A DNA stretch of 64,000 bases from Chloroflexota bacterium. GTDB lineage: Bacteria; Chloroflexota; UBA11872; VXOZ01. Of this stretch, positions 34,393 to 44,204 are shown in pieces. The translations under genes and the position numbers were made by a program. A model generated the notes under the pieces. That model did no database searches, had not been told where the DNA came from, and saw nothing but the letters and a program-made list of their open reading frames with translations. Position 1 is the stretch's first letter, and the number at the start of each line of letters is the position of its first letter. Location of the stretch: the NCBI GenBank assembly GCA_958295775.1, contig CATQHC010000002.1:717663-781662 (forward strand), in the 5' to 3' direction.

Positions 34393-36837
34393 TTATGTTC
34401 GCACTCGTTGCTTCAGCCAAAAGTAGATTCGGAAAGGCAGCATTTGGTGGTAGCGCTGTAGCGTAGCCTCCAGACCGTTGATCGTCTCGTCTTTTGCCTG
34501 CACAACTTCGCGGATGTACTGGTCCTTCTGCATCACGGAATCTTCCATGAATTGCAGCCGGCCTTCCAAGGCTTCATGCTGCTCCAGGAGATCGCTCACC
34601 CAGCCGTGCATCCATTCCTCAAAGCGGCCGGCGTCCTGGCTACCGTCCGCTGCAAGTGGAGGCCGTTCCGCATCGGCCTCCCGCAGTGCATCCTCCACAC
34701 CCTGTACAAAGGCGTGGCGCAGTACCGTTGCATAGTACTGTTCTCTGAGTTGCGGGTTAGCGATTTCGTTTACGCCAATCTCGTCCGCCAAATGAGGGTG
34801 CTTGCCCATCATACGCACGGCCGACTTGCCAGCGGCGCGCTGGCGTTTTAGGAATTGCTCCAAGTCTACGGGCTCGGCATGGTAGGCAATGGCGCGTTCG
34901 TTGAACACCAGACGCATGCCCCGCTGCTGCAAGCGATAGGCAATATCGGCATCTTCGTAGAAGCGCAGCGACTCGTCGAATCCTCCGATGGAGAGAAAGT
35001 CTTCCCGCCACAGCGAGCAATTTGCCGTGTAGAAGCACGTGAACGACAGGTTCTCAGGATCTGTAATGCGATTGAATGCAAAGAGCACGCCCCGCAATGC
35101 CATCTCCATGAAGGGAGAGACTTCCAAGTCCGGATGCCAAGGGGTATACCCGGCAACCGCGAAGCCCGCGCCTCTGCTGAGGTGCGTCTGCACGTGCTCT
35201 TCGATGAAGCGCGCGTGCGGAACGCAATCGTCGTCAAAGAACACCAGCAGGTCGCCGGTCGCCGCGCCAACCGCCAAGTTACGCGCTGCCGCGGGACCTG
35301 CGTTTTCCTGTCGAATCATGCGCCAACTCTCACGTTCGCCGCAGATGGCCCCAAGTATAGAGGGCGTATCGTCGTCTGAGCCATCATCCACAAAGAGCAC
35401 CTCGCGAGGTGGACAGCTCTGGGCCGCGAGGCCCTCCGCCAGTCGCGGCAAGAGATGCGCGCGATTGTAGGTGGGAATGATCACGCTAACACTGGGGGCC
35501 GTCTCCGGCGGAATCGCCGCCGCAGATTCCTGGTGTGACAATACTCCTGCTCGTGGCGGCGGCATTCTCCCGGGGGAAGCTGTCGCGGCGGCGGCCCGGC
35601 CTTCCTGTTGTTCCTTTGCCATCTCATCCATCTCTGATTCCAATCCCAGCGCCCGCACGATTATCGGAAAGAGGTCCTGCATTGTTAGTGTAGCGTGGCC
35701 TGGCACCCAATCGATAGTGTGCGTAATGTAGCGGCTCCAATTGTCCATCGCATCAGGCAAGTAGCCGTGCATGCCCCGCACTGCTTCCGTTTGGAAGAAG
35801 TTGGGGCAAATCAGGACACCAGCTTCCGTCGCATACATTATTTCGCCATAGGGGCTGCTGTCGGCATACGCAATTCCAAGCTCCCTTTGTTCAATCTCAG
35901 TAAGCCGTCGGATGCCGTTAAGCCCAGCCAGGGCCTGGCAGAGCGCGGTCCTTGCCGCTTTGTGCTCCGGCCACAGCCGGACGCCGGTGGAATCGAGAAA
36001 GTACACGTAGTCTTCCGGCACTGAGAGGCCGGTCTGGGCCAGCGCCGCCTGCACGTCAACCGTTCGCTCCACGGCAACCATGCCATGATCGCCAAACACC
36101 AGAGTGGCCGTGCTTCCATGCATTTCCTGCATCGAGGCGCATATCCGCTCCACCGCGTGGTCAATGCCGCGCAAGGCGCTGAGCACTTGGCGACTGCCGG
36201 GACCATGCTCGTGCCCAAGCCAGTCCAGTTCGCCGAAGTGCACGTACACCAGCCTGTGTTCCGGCCTCACGGCCGCATAGAACTGCGCCAAGAGGTTCTC
36301 TGTCCGTTGGTCGTCGCGGGGATGACCGAGGGCGAGCCAGGATCTGCCGGCGCGACGCAGAAGATCGTACACACTTGGTACACCGAGCGCGCCAGACTCC
36401 TGAGAATCGCGCTCCCAACCAAACGCGAACTGCGGCAACAGCGCCGGAGGAATGCGCGCGGTCATGCCGTAACAAGCGGAGGCGCTGTGTCCATTCTCGT
36501 TTTCGATCCTGTGCGTCTTGCGATCCCAGAGTGGACGCAGCACCTTCTCTAATTGTGGATGCTTATCTAGAACGTCCTCCGAAGGGATATCAATCTCTTG
36601 GAAAGGTGAGGCGGCGGGGTCGCGCACAAACATCGTGTGGCCGATTGCAGTCTCATTGGGTAAGCAGCCCGTCAGGAAGCCGGGATGCTCTTGAAAGCCA
36701 TACGTTGAAATTAGCGGGCCGGACTTCCCCTCTTGCATGAGCCTGTAGAGAAACGGCGCACTCCGCGGTGTCACGTAGTCGTGACGCAGCGCGTCGATCA
36801 AGAGCAGGGTGAGAGGCGGGTGAATAAGAGTTGACAT
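34393..36837 (-). CDS. Fusion protein: alkaline-phosphatase-superfamily phosphodiesterase plus family 2 glycosyltransferase
   Basis: 814 residues from ATG 36837, one base after the stop of the nucleotidyltransferase gene. Residues 1-400 are a type I phosphodiesterase/AlkP-superfamily domain: LLLIDALRHDYV (first metal Asp), VYVHFGELDWLGHEHGPGS (Asp and His ligands) and VFGDHGM. A 40-residue linker (EMAKEQQEGRAAAATA) leads to a GT-A domain at about 435-680: VSVIIPTYNRAHLLPRLAEG, VLFVDDGSDDDTPSIL, and FFDDDCVPHARF with the DxD motif; CSLWREDFLSIGGFDESLRFYEDADIAYRLQ is also typical. The last 80 residues are helical, likely coiled coil. No TM segment is seen. It may build and trim a surface polymer; substrate unknown. 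Confidence 0.85.
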   Translation of the reverse strand: MSTLIHPPLTLLLIDALRHDYVTPRSAPFLYRLMQEGKSGPLISTYGFQEHPGFLTGCLPNETAIGHTMFVRDPAASPFQEIDIPSEDVLDKHPQLEKVLRPLWDRKTHRIENENGHSASACYGMTARIPPALLPQFAFGWERDSQESGALGVPSVYDLLRRAGRSWLALGHPRDDQRTENLLAQFYAAVRPEHRLVYVHFGELDWLGHEHGPGSRQVLSALRGIDHAVERICASMQEMHGSTATLVFGDHGMVAVERTVDVQAALAQTGLSVPEDYVYFLDSTGVRLWPEHKAARTALCQALAGLNGIRRLTEIEQRELGIAYADSSPYGEIMYATEAGVLICPNFFQTEAVRGMHGYLPDAMDNWSRYITHTIDWVPGHATLTMQDLFPIIVRALGLESEMDEMAKEQQEGRAAAATASPGRMPPPRAGVLSHQESAAAIPPETAPSVSVIIPTYNRAHLLPRLAEGLAAQSCPPREVLFVDDGSDDDTPSILGAICGERESWRMIRQENAGPAAARNLAVGAATGDLLVFFDDDCVPHARFIEEHVQTHLSRGAGFAVAGYTPWHPDLEVSPFMEMALRGVLFAFNRITDPENLSFTCFYTANCSLWREDFLSIGGFDESLRFYEDADIAYRLQQRGMRLVFNERAIAYHAEPVDLEQFLKRQRAAGKSAVRMMGKHPHLADEIGVNEIANPQLREQYYATVLRHAFVQGVEDALREADAERPPLAADGSQDAGRFEEWMHGWVSDLLEQHEALEGRLQFMEDSVMQKDQYIREVVQAKDETINGLEATLQRYHQMLPFRIYFWLKQRVRT

Positions 36838-36838
36838 C

Positions 36839-37897
36839 TCAGTGACAGTGGTGAAACCACGCTGCAACAACCGTGCGGCGCATGAGCGGCCACGTTGTAT
36901 CAGGGCACGCAATACCTGCCTTCTCCAATAGGTCCCGGGCCAATTCCAGCAGTTCCCTGTCCGGTCGGGATTCGTCCCAAGCGGCAAGCGTCAAGTACTG
37001 TACCGCTTCAATCGCCCCGCGTATCGGGTTACCTGAAGCGTAGTTGGCGACAAAGTGCGCAAGGTCATGCGGAGTCGTAAAAGGTCGGTCGCGTGCATAC
37101 ATCCAGTTCATTAGTTGGGTGAACGTCGGCAGGAGAGCCGCGCGGGTTCGCCGCCAAAACGTTTCAGGCGGCATACCGAGACTTGCCGGATCGAGCCCCT
37201 GCCGCAAGCGCCATGCGGCCTCCACGAGCGTAACGCTCTCGCTGGCGGCAGGAACCAGCGAACTCAGTAGATCGCGTTTGCCCTCGTACCGAATGGCGTA
37301 CAACTCGTGTAGCAGCGCAACGGCATCCGCAATCGCGAATGCCGCTTTACTGGATTGGTATGCGAGAAAGATGCCGGCTTCTTCATCGTCTTGCAACGAT
37401 TCCGGCCCGTCTTCAACGCACTCCAGCAAACAGATCATCCGGTTGAGCAGCAAGACCTGTGCTTCGATGAGAGGGATGTCTGACGGCTGCCAGTCCGGCA
37501 GAGTGTCCAGGAGTTTCGCATCGCCATGGAACACGTAGCCCGCGTGCCGCAGGTCAAAGTTGAAGATGCTTGGCGGTAACCATGCAAAGCGATGGAGACC
37601 GACACCGAGCAGGTCTACGCCGCGCACTCCGAGCATGCGCGCGGCCTGATCCGCGCGATCTTTGAGAAACCGGGGGTCGGGCTCAGTCTTGGCAACCACC
37701 ACCACATCATAGTCATTGAACGGCTGCATGCCCCGGGGAGACGCCCGAAACGCACCCTCACCGTGGGCGAAACTGCCGGTTAGAATGAGCGTCTCAACGT
37801 CGGGTAGGCTACGACAGACCGCCTGCCGGAGGCGTTCGATGTCCTGCGCGGCGCGAGAGTGGATGCGCATGTCTGTTTCCGCCACCATATGCTCCAT
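36839..37897 (-). CDS. Nucleotidyltransferase-fold protein
   Basis: 352 residues. The N-terminal domain has the pol-beta-type signature LILTGSFAHGEGAF...FNDYDVVVV, with GS helix and D-x-D metal site about 20 residues on. The insert between (RASPRGMQP) is longer than in minimal MNT proteins. The rest is all-helical (LIEAQVLLLNRMICLLECVED, AAFAIADAVALLHELYA), as in proteins of this group that modify larger substrates. The stop is one base from the start of the phosphatase-glycosyltransferase fusion, so both are probably made together. The transferred nucleotide and acceptor are unknown. Confidence 0.75.
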   Translation of the reverse strand: MEHMVAETDMRIHSRAAQDIERLRQAVCRSLPDVETLILTGSFAHGEGAFRASPRGMQPFNDYDVVVVAKTEPDPRFLKDRADQAARMLGVRGVDLLGVGLHRFAWLPPSIFNFDLRHAGYVFHGDAKLLDTLPDWQPSDIPLIEAQVLLLNRMICLLECVEDGPESLQDDEEAGIFLAYQSSKAAFAIADAVALLHELYAIRYEGKRDLLSSLVPAASESVTLVEAAWRLRQGLDPASLGMPPETFWRRTRAALLPTFTQLMNWMYARDRPFTTPHDLAHFVANYASGNPIRGAIEAVQYLTLAAWDESRPDRELLELARDLLEKAGIACPDTTWPLMRRTVVAAWFHHCH

Positions 37898-39926: not shown

Positions 39927-41501
39927 TCAAGTTGCCGGCGAACTTGATGGCGCGGGGTCTTGCACCCCGGAGCCCGACATCAGCGCGCTAAAGGGATGTA
40001 GCTTGTGGACACAGTGATTGCCGGTATCCGCCACGTACACGTGTTCGCGCTCGTCCACGGCAATCCCACATGGGTCTGAAAACAGTCCCTGCTTACCGGC
40101 AGCCATTGGGCCCCACTCGAAGAGCGGTTCGCCGGCAGCGGACAACTCCTGTACGCGGTTGTTCCACGTGTCCACCACATAGATTCTGCCGCTCCGGTCC
40201 AGGGCAATGCCGCTGGGATTGCGAAATTGGCCCGGTTCGGAGCCTTCCTCGCCCCATTGCTGCGTTGGCTCACCCTCCGCCGAGAGTTTCTGCACACGGT
40301 GATTCCCCGAATCCGTCACGTAGATCCAGCCCTCGTGATCAACAGCGATGCCGGTCGGCGCGCGAAATTCACCCGGCTCACCGCCGGAGGATCCCCAGAT
40401 ATTCAGCAATTCACCGTTCGCAGACAGCTTCTGGATGCGGTGATTGCCGGTGTCCGCGACAAAAATCTCACCGTCGGAATTCACCGCGACCCCACCGGGC
40501 GAACGGAATTGTCCAGGCTTGGAGCCCTGCTCACCCCACTGGCGCAGTGGTTGGCCTTCAGCGGACAGCTTCTGAATGCGGTGATTGAGTGTGTCCGACA
40601 CAAACATCTGGCCTTCCCCGTCAATCGTCAAGCCGCGGGGGGAGCGAAACTCGCCCGGCTTCTGTCCGGTGTTTCCCCACTGCGCAGTCGCTTCCCCATC
40701 AGTAGAAAGCTTCTGAACACGGTTGTTGAGTGTGTCGGCTAGATACATATTTCCCTGTGGGTCCAGCGCGACGTCGTGCGGAGAACTGAACTGCCCATCT
40801 CTTGAACCAAGCTCTCCCCAGATCGAGATGCTGCGGCGCCGCTGACTGGACTTTACGCGGCGAATTATCCTCACCGCCCAGACAATCATAACGATAAGCG
40901 CAGCCAATGAGAGCGGCAGCAACCACAGCACGCCGAGCAACAATGGGAAGTCGTACAGAATGTGGAGCACCACCGGAATCACCCAAGCCAAACGTAGGGA
41001 CCGTCCGCGGTTCGCTTCATTGAACGTGCCCTGCGCAATGTAGTACCCCATGATGGCGCCGAGCGCGGCATGCGCGGGGACCGAGGTAAGGACTCGTATG
41101 CCCGCTCCCAGCACGTCCCCCTCTATGACAAAGGCGATGCTCTCCAAAGTAGCAAATCCGAGGGAAGCGACGACACCGTAGACTACCCCATCGAACGGCT
41201 CAGCCAGCCGTTTGCGCTGGCACGAGTATCCTGCGAGTATCCAATACTTGAATGACTCCTCGAGAATTGCTACGCCAAGAATTGTTCTTGCCAATGCAAC
41301 ATAGAAGTAGCTGGGCATGAGGACATAGATTGGCGATATGGGAAATCCCAAAATGATCACCGGAATCGTGACGAGGACGCCAAGTCCAAACGTTGCCCAA
41401 AGGATTGTGCGCGGCTGTGGATACTGCGGACGGGTGTGCAGGAACCACATGAGAGCGAGGCCCGGCACCACCGCGGAAGAAAACAAGACTAATGGTTGCA
41501 A
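39927..41501 (-). CDS. PrsW-like intramembrane protease fused to six NHL repeats
   Basis: 524 residues. Residues 1-215 are a membrane domain with about seven hydrophobic segments and PrsW motifs: LEESFKYW (Glu81, Glu82, Lys85), GFATLES (Glu120), VPAHAALGAIMGY (His144) and VVLHILYDFPLLL (His180). These match the metal-binding EExxK/FxxxE/H set of PrsW glutamic/metallo proteases. A basic segment (RIIRRVKSSQRRR) then leads to six NHL repeats from about 228 to 505, each with the pattern G-x-F-x-x-P-x-G-[IV]-A-[VL]-D and ending NHR[IV]QKLS, enough for a closed six-bladed propeller. The propeller side relative to the membrane is uncertain. I know of PrsW alone in signalling proteolysis; this fusion looks unusual. 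Confidence 0.82.
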   Translation of the reverse strand: MQPLVLFSSAVVPGLALMWFLHTRPQYPQPRTILWATFGLGVLVTIPVIILGFPISPIYVLMPSYFYVALARTILGVAILEESFKYWILAGYSCQRKRLAEPFDGVVYGVVASLGFATLESIAFVIEGDVLGAGIRVLTSVPAHAALGAIMGYYIAQGTFNEANRGRSLRLAWVIPVVLHILYDFPLLLGVLWLLPLSLAALIVMIVWAVRIIRRVKSSQRRRSISIWGELGSRDGQFSSPHDVALDPQGNMYLADTLNNRVQKLSTDGEATAQWGNTGQKPGEFRSPRGLTIDGEGQMFVSDTLNHRIQKLSAEGQPLRQWGEQGSKPGQFRSPGGVAVNSDGEIFVADTGNHRIQKLSANGELLNIWGSSGGEPGEFRAPTGIAVDHEGWIYVTDSGNHRVQKLSAEGEPTQQWGEEGSEPGQFRNPSGIALDRSGRIYVVDTWNNRVQELSAAGEPLFEWGPMAAGKQGLFSDPCGIAVDEREHVYVADTGNHCVHKLHPFSALMSGSGVQDPAPSSSPAT

Positions 41502-41843
41502 CGCAGCCTCCCTGCTACACCCATCGCTATCGCTAAACTCATATGCAGTTGAACGTTCTTAGACTCGCGCATTTTGCCTGAACTTCCCCAGCGCTCCGAC
41601 TATTCGGTGAGCATGTCTAGGTCTGACTCTCGGCGAGTTGACCCTATGCCCGAGTATTTGCGTGGAGAAACGGCCCCAATCTAAGGGGGGTAAACCTTGG
41701 AATCGAGGGCTGACCGCGGCGGAGGACGTTCCTCTCCCCGCTAAGCGTGACACGAAGCGGACTCAGTGTGCAAGCCCGACAAATATCAATTGGTATAGGT
41801 AGAACTCGTTCTAGAGTGAATGGACGGCAGGGCACATTGCCAA
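41502..41843. other. Intergenic stretch, no gene recognised
   Basis: About 340 bp between two minus-strand genes. No hairpin or motif stands out. Confidence 0.45.
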
Positions 41844-44204
41844 CTATGGGACAAAATCAATCCACGTGGGACTCGACCATGCTCGCGGCCCCCAGGCTGG
41901 GGCAACATTGGAAAGGTGGTTGCGCCAGGCCATTGATTGTTCAACCCAAATGTAGTAAAAGTGCGGTCCGGGTGACGCATCTGCATCGGTATAGACGCCC
42001 GATGCATGCTCGTCAGCAGTCTCCCAGGCTGTAATCACCCTGCCGTCACGCACCAGCTTGACGGTCGCCGGTTGATTTCGCAACTGCACCTTCCAACTAA
42101 CTTCCGGCGGCGTCTCCGTCCTGCCCTCGCCCCCCATGAAGACCCCGGAAACCCAGACTTGCACCGCGATACGGGAACCGTCGGTCGCGAAACAACGATG
42201 CTGCCGCAGCGCATCGAGAATTGCTGGACGCGTCAGCTCCTCGGCATATATCCCCGTCAGCCCGCCGCCGGTACCCGCCGTGCGGCGATGGCCGTCGCTG
42301 CAACCGATGAAGCCCAGCTTGCGGCCACTCTTGAGCACATCGTGAATCTTCTGCCGATACTCCCGGTCGAGCATGTGCACACGCCAGCCGGAGCAAACCT
42401 CCATGTTCGTCTCCGTATCAGAGTCGGACAAGAATTGCCAGTGTTCGTGGTGTGGATGCAGGATCGCGCCATGCTGCTCGGCGTGCGCGGCAAGTGCGGC
42501 GAGCGGCGCTCCTTCCACTTCGGTATAGCGCAGGAGCGGCAGGTCTTTATCTCCGGCAATCACTGTGCGGTGATTTGAAGTCCTGGCGCCGGTTGCGCGA
42601 CTCATCTGCGACCATTCGTACGCGGGGAGTAATACTAGGTCGTCCAAGTGCTGAAAGTGACGCGCAAAGTGGTAGTCCTGGTCGTATTCCGACGTCGTGA
42701 GGCTCAGGAGGTGCTTGTCGTTATCGGAAATAGCCATGCAATCCAAATGGGCCTTGTCACGCGCATACGCGATCAGTTCGTCAACGTACCCCTCCGCATC
42801 GGCGGAGTGCGTCGAATGCACATGCAGGTCAGCCCAAAAGAGCGAAAGCTCAGTTTCTCTCTTCTCATTCGTTTCCGCTCTTGCAGCATTCTCCTGAATT
42901 TGCACACGCGGCCTGGGCTCGAGCCGGGGCTCATCCACCGTTACGGGAAAGCATCCGTGCCAAGCTCCCTCATCGCGAAAGACCGGCAAGTCAGCCACGC
43001 CATACGCTGCCACACAAACATCTTCCACTGAAATTTCCGGCGCAACCCGCGCGGTTAGCCAAAGGCCTTTCTGCCCCGCGGCGTTCGCGACCGGCGTGTA
43101 GTAGCGGGGTCCGTCGGCAATGAAGCGGGTGTCGTGGACGTTGGGCAGAGCTTGGTTGGCAGTAGTTTCGAGGCGCCGCCCGCAGAGCACGCCCGGCGTA
43201 ATGGTCGTGCTGCCGTTCGCTTGCTTCTTGCGTTCCCAGAGCAACCAGACGCCGCCATCAGAGTCCGGAACCACCAGCGGTTTGCGCCGCCTGCCGAGAT
43301 AGCCCCATACTCCCAAGCCCTGCCATTCCAGCATGCCCCAGGCCAAGACTCCCAGGTCCGGCGAACCGCTGGCGTCACGCACCAGCTCCCAGCGGCCCCC
43401 AACGCGCCGAGCGACCCGGGCTACGGGCCACTGGTCGAGCACGTTTGTATCGCTCACGACTTCCTGGCGGCAGAGCCATGCAATCCAGGGATTGCCCGCG
43501 CTGTCAACAGTGAGTGACGGCACAAGTTGCCACGCTGCCGACGAAACCATGGGCGTCTCAACTGCGCTGTCAGCTACAGACTCTCTGAGTGTCACAGCGC
43601 CATTGTTGTCCACAAAGGCAGCCTGAATGCCATACGTGCTGCCATCATAGGCATCCCAAGCCACCCAACAGCCGTCCGGCGTCACAGCCACTTCCGGGCG
43701 TTGCACCCATCCGGCCGCGGGCGTAACGTCTATTGGTTCCGACCAGCCCGCACCTTCATTGACAACGAGCCTGATGACATATTCGCCCGGCGACGCAGCC
43801 TCGCACCACACTGCCGCCATGCGTTCATCCGTTGAGTCAGCGTGCAGGGAAACCACGAAACCCCTGCTGCCCAGGGGTTTGGGAGATTCCCAGCCGGATT
43901 CAGAACGCGTGGACCCAACGGCAGCATACGATTGGCTTGATTCTTGGCTAATCCAGGCGCAGACCGGCACACCCCGGACAAGCCCAACGCAGGGCGAGTG
44001 GTTCCTGCCTCCTACAGGGGTTAGAGTCTCAATTTGCGCAGGATCATCACCGTGCAGCGCTCGTGCGTAGATTTTCTCGTCGTCCCGCTGATAACCCTGC
44101 CACACGGCCCAGAGCGTGTCGCCACTGCACACCGCATGCGGCGTGTGGCATTCGATTCCCTGCAATTCCGCCGATAGAACCGCATGCTTGATTGTATCCG
44201 TCAT
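41844..44204 (-). CDS. PHP-domain (DUF3604-like) metal-dependent hydrolase with N-terminal propeller-like half
   Basis: 786 residues. The first 420 residues hold repeated segments with Trp-rich strands (PHAVCSGDTLWAVWQGY; RPEVAVTPDGCWVAWDAYDG; VPSLTVDSAGNPWIAWLC; DSDGGVWLLWERK), spaced like blades of a sialidase-type propeller. At about 455 the PHP domain begins: FWADLHVHSTHSADAEGYVDEL (two metal His), MAISDND, ILHPHHEHW and LGFIGCSDGHRR, all metal-site positions. The end is a beta-rich domain (RNQPATVKLVRDGRVITAW, ASPGPHFYYIWVEQ) as in DUF3604 proteins. No signal peptide is seen. It probably hydrolyses a phosphate or related ester; substrate unknown. Confidence 0.75.
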   Translation of the reverse strand: MTDTIKHAVLSAELQGIECHTPHAVCSGDTLWAVWQGYQRDDEKIYARALHGDDPAQIETLTPVGGRNHSPCVGLVRGVPVCAWISQESSQSYAAVGSTRSESGWESPKPLGSRGFVVSLHADSTDERMAAVWCEAASPGEYVIRLVVNEGAGWSEPIDVTPAAGWVQRPEVAVTPDGCWVAWDAYDGSTYGIQAAFVDNNGAVTLRESVADSAVETPMVSSAAWQLVPSLTVDSAGNPWIAWLCRQEVVSDTNVLDQWPVARVARRVGGRWELVRDASGSPDLGVLAWGMLEWQGLGVWGYLGRRRKPLVVPDSDGGVWLLWERKKQANGSTTITPGVLCGRRLETTANQALPNVHDTRFIADGPRYYTPVANAAGQKGLWLTARVAPEISVEDVCVAAYGVADLPVFRDEGAWHGCFPVTVDEPRLEPRPRVQIQENAARAETNEKRETELSLFWADLHVHSTHSADAEGYVDELIAYARDKAHLDCMAISDNDKHLLSLTTSEYDQDYHFARHFQHLDDLVLLPAYEWSQMSRATGARTSNHRTVIAGDKDLPLLRYTEVEGAPLAALAAHAEQHGAILHPHHEHWQFLSDSDTETNMEVCSGWRVHMLDREYRQKIHDVLKSGRKLGFIGCSDGHRRTAGTGGGLTGIYAEELTRPAILDALRQHRCFATDGSRIAVQVWVSGVFMGGEGRTETPPEVSWKVQLRNQPATVKLVRDGRVITAWETADEHASGVYTDADASPGPHFYYIWVEQSMAWRNHLSNVAPAWGPRAWSSPTWIDFVP

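Follow-up and report, generated by a model that had tools for sequence, protein, structure and literature searches.

The locus at positions 39,927 to 41,501 of the window (the whole 64,000-nucleotide stretch of Chloroflexota DNA that was analysed) raises two questions: what a PrsW-type intramembrane protease does with an NHL propeller at its C-terminus, and whether such a protein still cuts. PrsW-fold proteins are widespread, and few have known substrates or signals. The initial annotation described the gene as a PrsW-type protease fused to a six-bladed NHL propeller, an observation that is confirmed by Pfam, the sequence motifs, the structure model and the orthologues. The features of the gene are as follows.

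39927..41501, minus strand: PrsW-NHL fusion protein, 524 aa, TTG start (from the ORF, Pfam and full-length orthologues in the genus)
41507..41512, minus strand: ribosome-binding site GGGAGG, 5 nt 5' of the TTG (invariant in six genus genomes)
40866..41501, minus strand: PrsW membrane domain, residues 1-212, with about seven predicted TM helices (PF13367, NF033739, hydropathy and charge pattern)
41247..41261, minus strand: motif 1, E81E82xxK85 (sequence comparison; the first Glu is Gln in 4/6 genus members)
41142..41156, minus strand: motif 2, F116xxxE120 (sequence comparison; the Glu is Ala in genome G213)
41070..41072, minus strand: motif 3, H144 (sequence comparison; invariant in the genus)
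40950..40964, minus strand: motif 4, H180xxxD184 (sequence comparison; His invariant in the genus)
40824..40877, minus strand: conserved juxtamembrane basic segment RIIRRVKSSQRRRS, residues 209-226 (by charge, a putative topology signal for a cytosolic C-terminus)
39993..40826, minus strand: six-bladed NHL propeller, residues 226-503 (PF01436, AlphaFold2 blades, Foldseek and blade starts)

A gene-model error joining two proteins can be ruled out. This is a single gene, with the same fusion and the same TTG start in all six genus genomes, and the GGGAGG is identical in 6/6, within an intergenic region that is mostly poorly conserved. The five further genomes carry the fusion at 67-72% identity, one copy ending at a contig edge; public members of the genus are the Chloroflexi MAGs Plut_88905 and SB0662_bin_44. 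In the window genome it is the sole PrsW gene found by the PF13367 search. An RNA element upstream of the gene was also considered and ruled out, since Rfam gave no match and upstream conservation is poor.

Profile searches place the N-terminal half in PrsW, as had been proposed. PF13367 (PrsW-protease; MEROPS M82) matches residues 29-208 with E 5.4e-27, scoring 95 bits where the cut-off is 23.5, over profile positions 1-193 of 196, and NF033739 ('glutamic-type intramembrane protease PrsW') matches with E 1.5e-34 over positions 2-203 of 210. The score against NF033739 is 119.5 bits, under the equivalog cut-off of 225, and the fusion protein is outside the RsiW-cleaving PrsW equivalog by NCBI's cut-off. 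All the PrsW motifs (EExxK, FxxxE, H and HxxxD) are present in the membrane half of the window copy, as first annotated; the term 'metal-site' that was applied to them is the one weak point of that annotation, NCBI classing the family as glutamic-type. Hydropathy and charge identify seven hydrophobic segments in this half, for which the AlphaFold2 models are of low confidence (block-mean pLDDT 34-57, and a mean of 51.6 in a second run on the membrane half). A scan of viral contigs for PrsW sequences that might deepen the alignment found nothing. Pairwise dN/dS between the genus orthologues is mostly 0.1-0.25 in the PrsW half and, as judged from the sequences, purifying selection is acting on both the PrsW half and the NHL half.

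The C-terminal half matches PF01436 (NHL) with E 3.1e-53. It contains six NHL units, starting at residues 241, 288, 335, 382, 429 and 477, and their number and spacing are identical across the full-length genus orthologues. The expectation that six repeats are enough for a full propeller is borne out by the model, in which they are predicted to form a closed propeller, with high confidence for the blades. In the AlphaFold2 model, residues 231-460 and 481-500 have block-mean pLDDT values close to 90 or higher (the blades being mostly above 90). Residues 461-470 form a weak stretch, and a strand modelled at 226-228, ahead of the first blade, probably closes the ring. Foldseek superposes the propeller on those of TRIM-NHL proteins (target TM-scores 0.93-0.96), and the closest solved propellers, by sequence (TRIM71, E 4.8e-73) as well as by fold, are the NHL domains of TRIM71 and Thin. 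The structural neighbours include both protein- and RNA-binding NHL domains, and the Mycobacterium tuberculosis PknD propeller is also among them. The TRIM71 NHL domain has RNA-bound structures, whereas acidic residues prevail in the propeller of the fusion protein (37 D+E, 23 K+R), a composition that makes RNA binding less likely. Blade identity is higher between orthologues (69-80%) than among the blades of one propeller (~50%), and recent amplification of blades is not supported by this comparison.

The location of the propeller bears directly on what it could sense. Site-1 signals are usually sensed outside the cell, and a one-protein sensor built on a site-1-type protease was what the initial annotation envisaged. 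Because AlphaFold2 modelled the membrane half poorly, the topology was taken from the charges alone, using loop boundaries set by hand from hydropathy. With these boundaries the loops of the window protein have 15 K/R inside and 1 outside, and those of six orthologues have 12-15 inside and 1-2 outside (binomial p 0.003-0.037). The positive side takes in the conserved segment just after the last helix, which has a charge of +7/-0 in the window protein and +5 to +6/-0 in the orthologues, and the propeller is therefore predicted to be cytosolic. The charges thus speak against sensing on the outside, and the orientation is probably N-out/C-in. An N-out arrangement has also been proposed for Bacillus subtilis PrsW and for a Leptospira PrsW-PilZ protein, in which the PilZ domain is modelled as cytosolic (PMC12943098). 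PknD likewise joins a six-bladed NHL propeller to the C-terminus of an enzyme that signals at the membrane; in PknD, however, the enzyme is a kinase rather than a protease and the propeller is extracellular, while that of the fusion protein is predicted to be cytosolic. It counts against a cytosolic placement that, in other members of the class, several of the NHL propellers that match better come after a hydrophobic N-terminal segment and appear to be exported.

The architecture had also been taken to be undescribed. A search of the open literature for 'PrsW' together with 'NHL' gave no paper, subscription papers and database entries being outside its scope. Among the 35 other genomes of the class, matches are confined to the NHL part. 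Across 301 genomes of the phylum, the PF13367 search found PrsW in 186; from these, 113 non-genus loci were sampled, representing 112 distinct domains rather than all of the PrsW matches, and NHL was found in none of the 112, so that this sample provides no case for a wider spread of the fusion. Among 25 of these non-genus PrsW proteins scanned with Pfam, 14 have FHA and one has a Zn-ribbon. Fusions of PrsW to intracellular PilZ, cyclic-nucleotide-binding, FHA and Zn-ribbon domains were described by Zhang et al. 2012, who propose signalling peptidases tied to those sensor domains (PMC3482391). The claim of novelty therefore survives for the pairing with NHL and not for the class of sensor-fused PrsW proteins: the NHL version appears to be new, and the fusion of PrsW to an intracellular sensor is itself already published.

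A different combination of a polytopic membrane region with NHL repeats is seen in other genera of the class, where four loci (L065, L066, L067 and L068) have large ORFs with several N-terminal hydrophobic segments followed by NHL repeats.

The best reading of the fusion protein, and one that we consider to have about an even chance of being correct, is a signalling PrsW whose cytosolic propeller would either bring a substrate to the enzyme or act as its gate. The cytosolic C-terminus of a signalling-type PrsW would have gained a six-bladed NHL propeller, which would act as an intracellular module that recognises or senses a cytosolic protein or ligand, or else binds the substrate by its cytosolic part. 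A short, conserved linker of basic charge would couple the propeller to the membrane-embedded Glu/His site, by substrate recruitment or by gating, and this site would then cleave a putative membrane protein. We prefer this reading because of the PrsW matches and the motifs of the window copy, the predicted propeller, the N-out/C-in charges and the published sensor-fused PrsW proteins; it is further supported by the FHA or Zn-ribbon domains in the sampled PrsW proteins of the phylum and by the low dN/dS (~0.1-0.25) of the PrsW half. The sensor-fused proteins (PMC3482391; Leptospira LIC_20173, PMC12943098) similarly have a PrsW domain with a cytosolic soluble domain that is thought to sense or bind; the fusion protein differs from them in carrying a six-bladed NHL propeller as its appended domain and in having often lost, within the genus, the first Glu of motif 1. 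The initial proposal of a one-protein sensor is thus upheld as to its domains and its idea of sensing or binding, for which there are published precedents, and is not supported as to sensing on the outside and a target of the RsiW anti-sigma type.

The loss of the first Glu provides clues as to whether the membrane half is proteolytic. The window genome and G149 have Glu at this position, and G077, G304, G033 and G213 have Gln (CAA or CAG); in G213 the FxxxE Glu is also replaced by Ala, and the HxxxD Asp by Glu. In related Rce1 proteases the first Glu is the catalytic residue. With Gln in 4/6 genus copies and the FxxxE Glu also gone from one of these, it is unsafe to take activity for granted across the lineage, and cutting may not be what has been conserved, a point against the favoured reading. 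In some copies, and perhaps in most of the genus, the membrane half may no longer be proteolytic. The main rival reading is that the protein is a PrsW-fold pseudoprotease, in which the membrane domain, its fold and conserved His residues retained, would serve as a binding or scaffold unit and the propeller as an interaction arm. The window copy would then be an allele that is intact or ancestral, most of the lineage having lost catalysis. We regard this as a serious possibility, though on balance a somewhat improbable one. In its favour, where the other five tested motif residues are intact, the first Glu is kept in 101/102 non-genus PrsW domains, and the stem of the genus PrsW clade is very long, at 3.2 substitutions per site. 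There is also a precedent in Abx1 of group B Streptococcus, a member of the CPBP/Abi family in a related intramembrane protease-like superfamily, which regulates a histidine kinase without needing its conserved Glu/His residues (PMC3578759); Abx1 offers a model for function free of catalysis, but it is from a different family and has no propeller. Against this reading, E82, K85, H144 and H180 do not vary within the genus, and the window copy and G149 retain every motif Glu and His. The remaining 1/102 case (L094) has Gln in an otherwise intact domain, and Gln may therefore be tolerated. For B. subtilis PrsW, H175A and the E75A/E76A pair of changes are described as functionally important; the Glu pair appears in that source as the double mutant only, which does not separate the first Glu from the second (PMC12943098).

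The history of the two halves is also relevant here. G077 and G149 are close kin by their NHL halves (dS 0.61) and by both of the flanking genes tested, yet their PrsW cores (L047/L055 and L057, respectively) are synonymously saturated, with pS 0.77. This suggests that the PrsW segment has been exchanged. It is not put forward as a firm claim, as an AU test on the PrsW core alone did not reject a common history (p-AU 0.15). More speculatively, and in our judgement doubtfully, the genus may have caught a propeller-bearing protease in the course of turning into a non-proteolytic membrane scaffold, with EE versions and QE or FxxxE-loss versions coexisting between species and apparently swapped independently of the propeller. 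The propeller-bearing copy and its close relatives with altered catalytic residues form a natural test of cutting against binding, and the same set tests whether the first Glu of EExxK is truly essential.

A model along the lines of the initial annotation, with a propeller outside the cell that would respond to a ligand by setting off the site-1 cleavage of an anti-sigma factor, we consider very unlikely. It draws on the site-1 cleavage of RsiW by B. subtilis PrsW (YpdC), which belongs to the same family and shares the four motifs and the inferred seven-helix N-out arrangement, on the extracellular PknD propeller among the structural matches, and on matches to the M50 (site-2-protease) family in four ORFs of the window genome. 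The B. subtilis protein differs, however, in having no appended domain. The charge bias puts the C-terminus inside, and the score falls below the PrsW equivalog cut-off. The search for an anti-sigma partner, which used the zf-HC2 domain (PF13490, RsiW-type) only, also told against this model, finding the domain in 0/6 genus genomes at E <= 0.001. Matches to region 4 of sigma factors are few: there are four in the window genome, one of them below cut-off. Separately, a 580-aa ORF at L176:1183-2922 (plus strand) has an ECF-like start and a region-4 match; it is long for an ECF sigma factor, and a fused C-terminal domain is possible.

PrsW-linked polymorphic toxins, in which PrsW is proposed to cut off and export the C-terminal domain, share the layout of a C-terminal domain on a short linker after PrsW (PMC3482391), but a release of this type is highly improbable here, given that the fusion protein ends in a slowly evolving binding propeller, which matches no toxin family in Pfam or NCBIfam and whose blades are more alike between orthologues than among themselves.

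The neighbourhood was also considered as a source of partners. A DUF3604/CehA-McbA-type gene (41844-44204, minus strand) lies upstream and adjoins the fusion gene in the genus genomes examined, and within the class the full-length form of its protein (loci L181-L185) is confined to the genus. Each genus genome has 16-23 DUF3604/CehA-McbA-related matches. Gene order is conserved over ~20 kb around the fusion and, because this whole region is syntenic throughout, adjacency is weak evidence and a partnership between the two genes cannot be claimed. No partner gene emerged, which weighs against the signalling reading. Elsewhere in the window, a 352-aa ORF at 36839-37897 (minus strand) has no Pfam match at E <= 0.001. 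By eye it is nucleotidyltransferase-like (GSFAHGEG, NDYDVVVV), and it adjoins a phosphodiesterase-glycosyltransferase fusion at 34393-36987.
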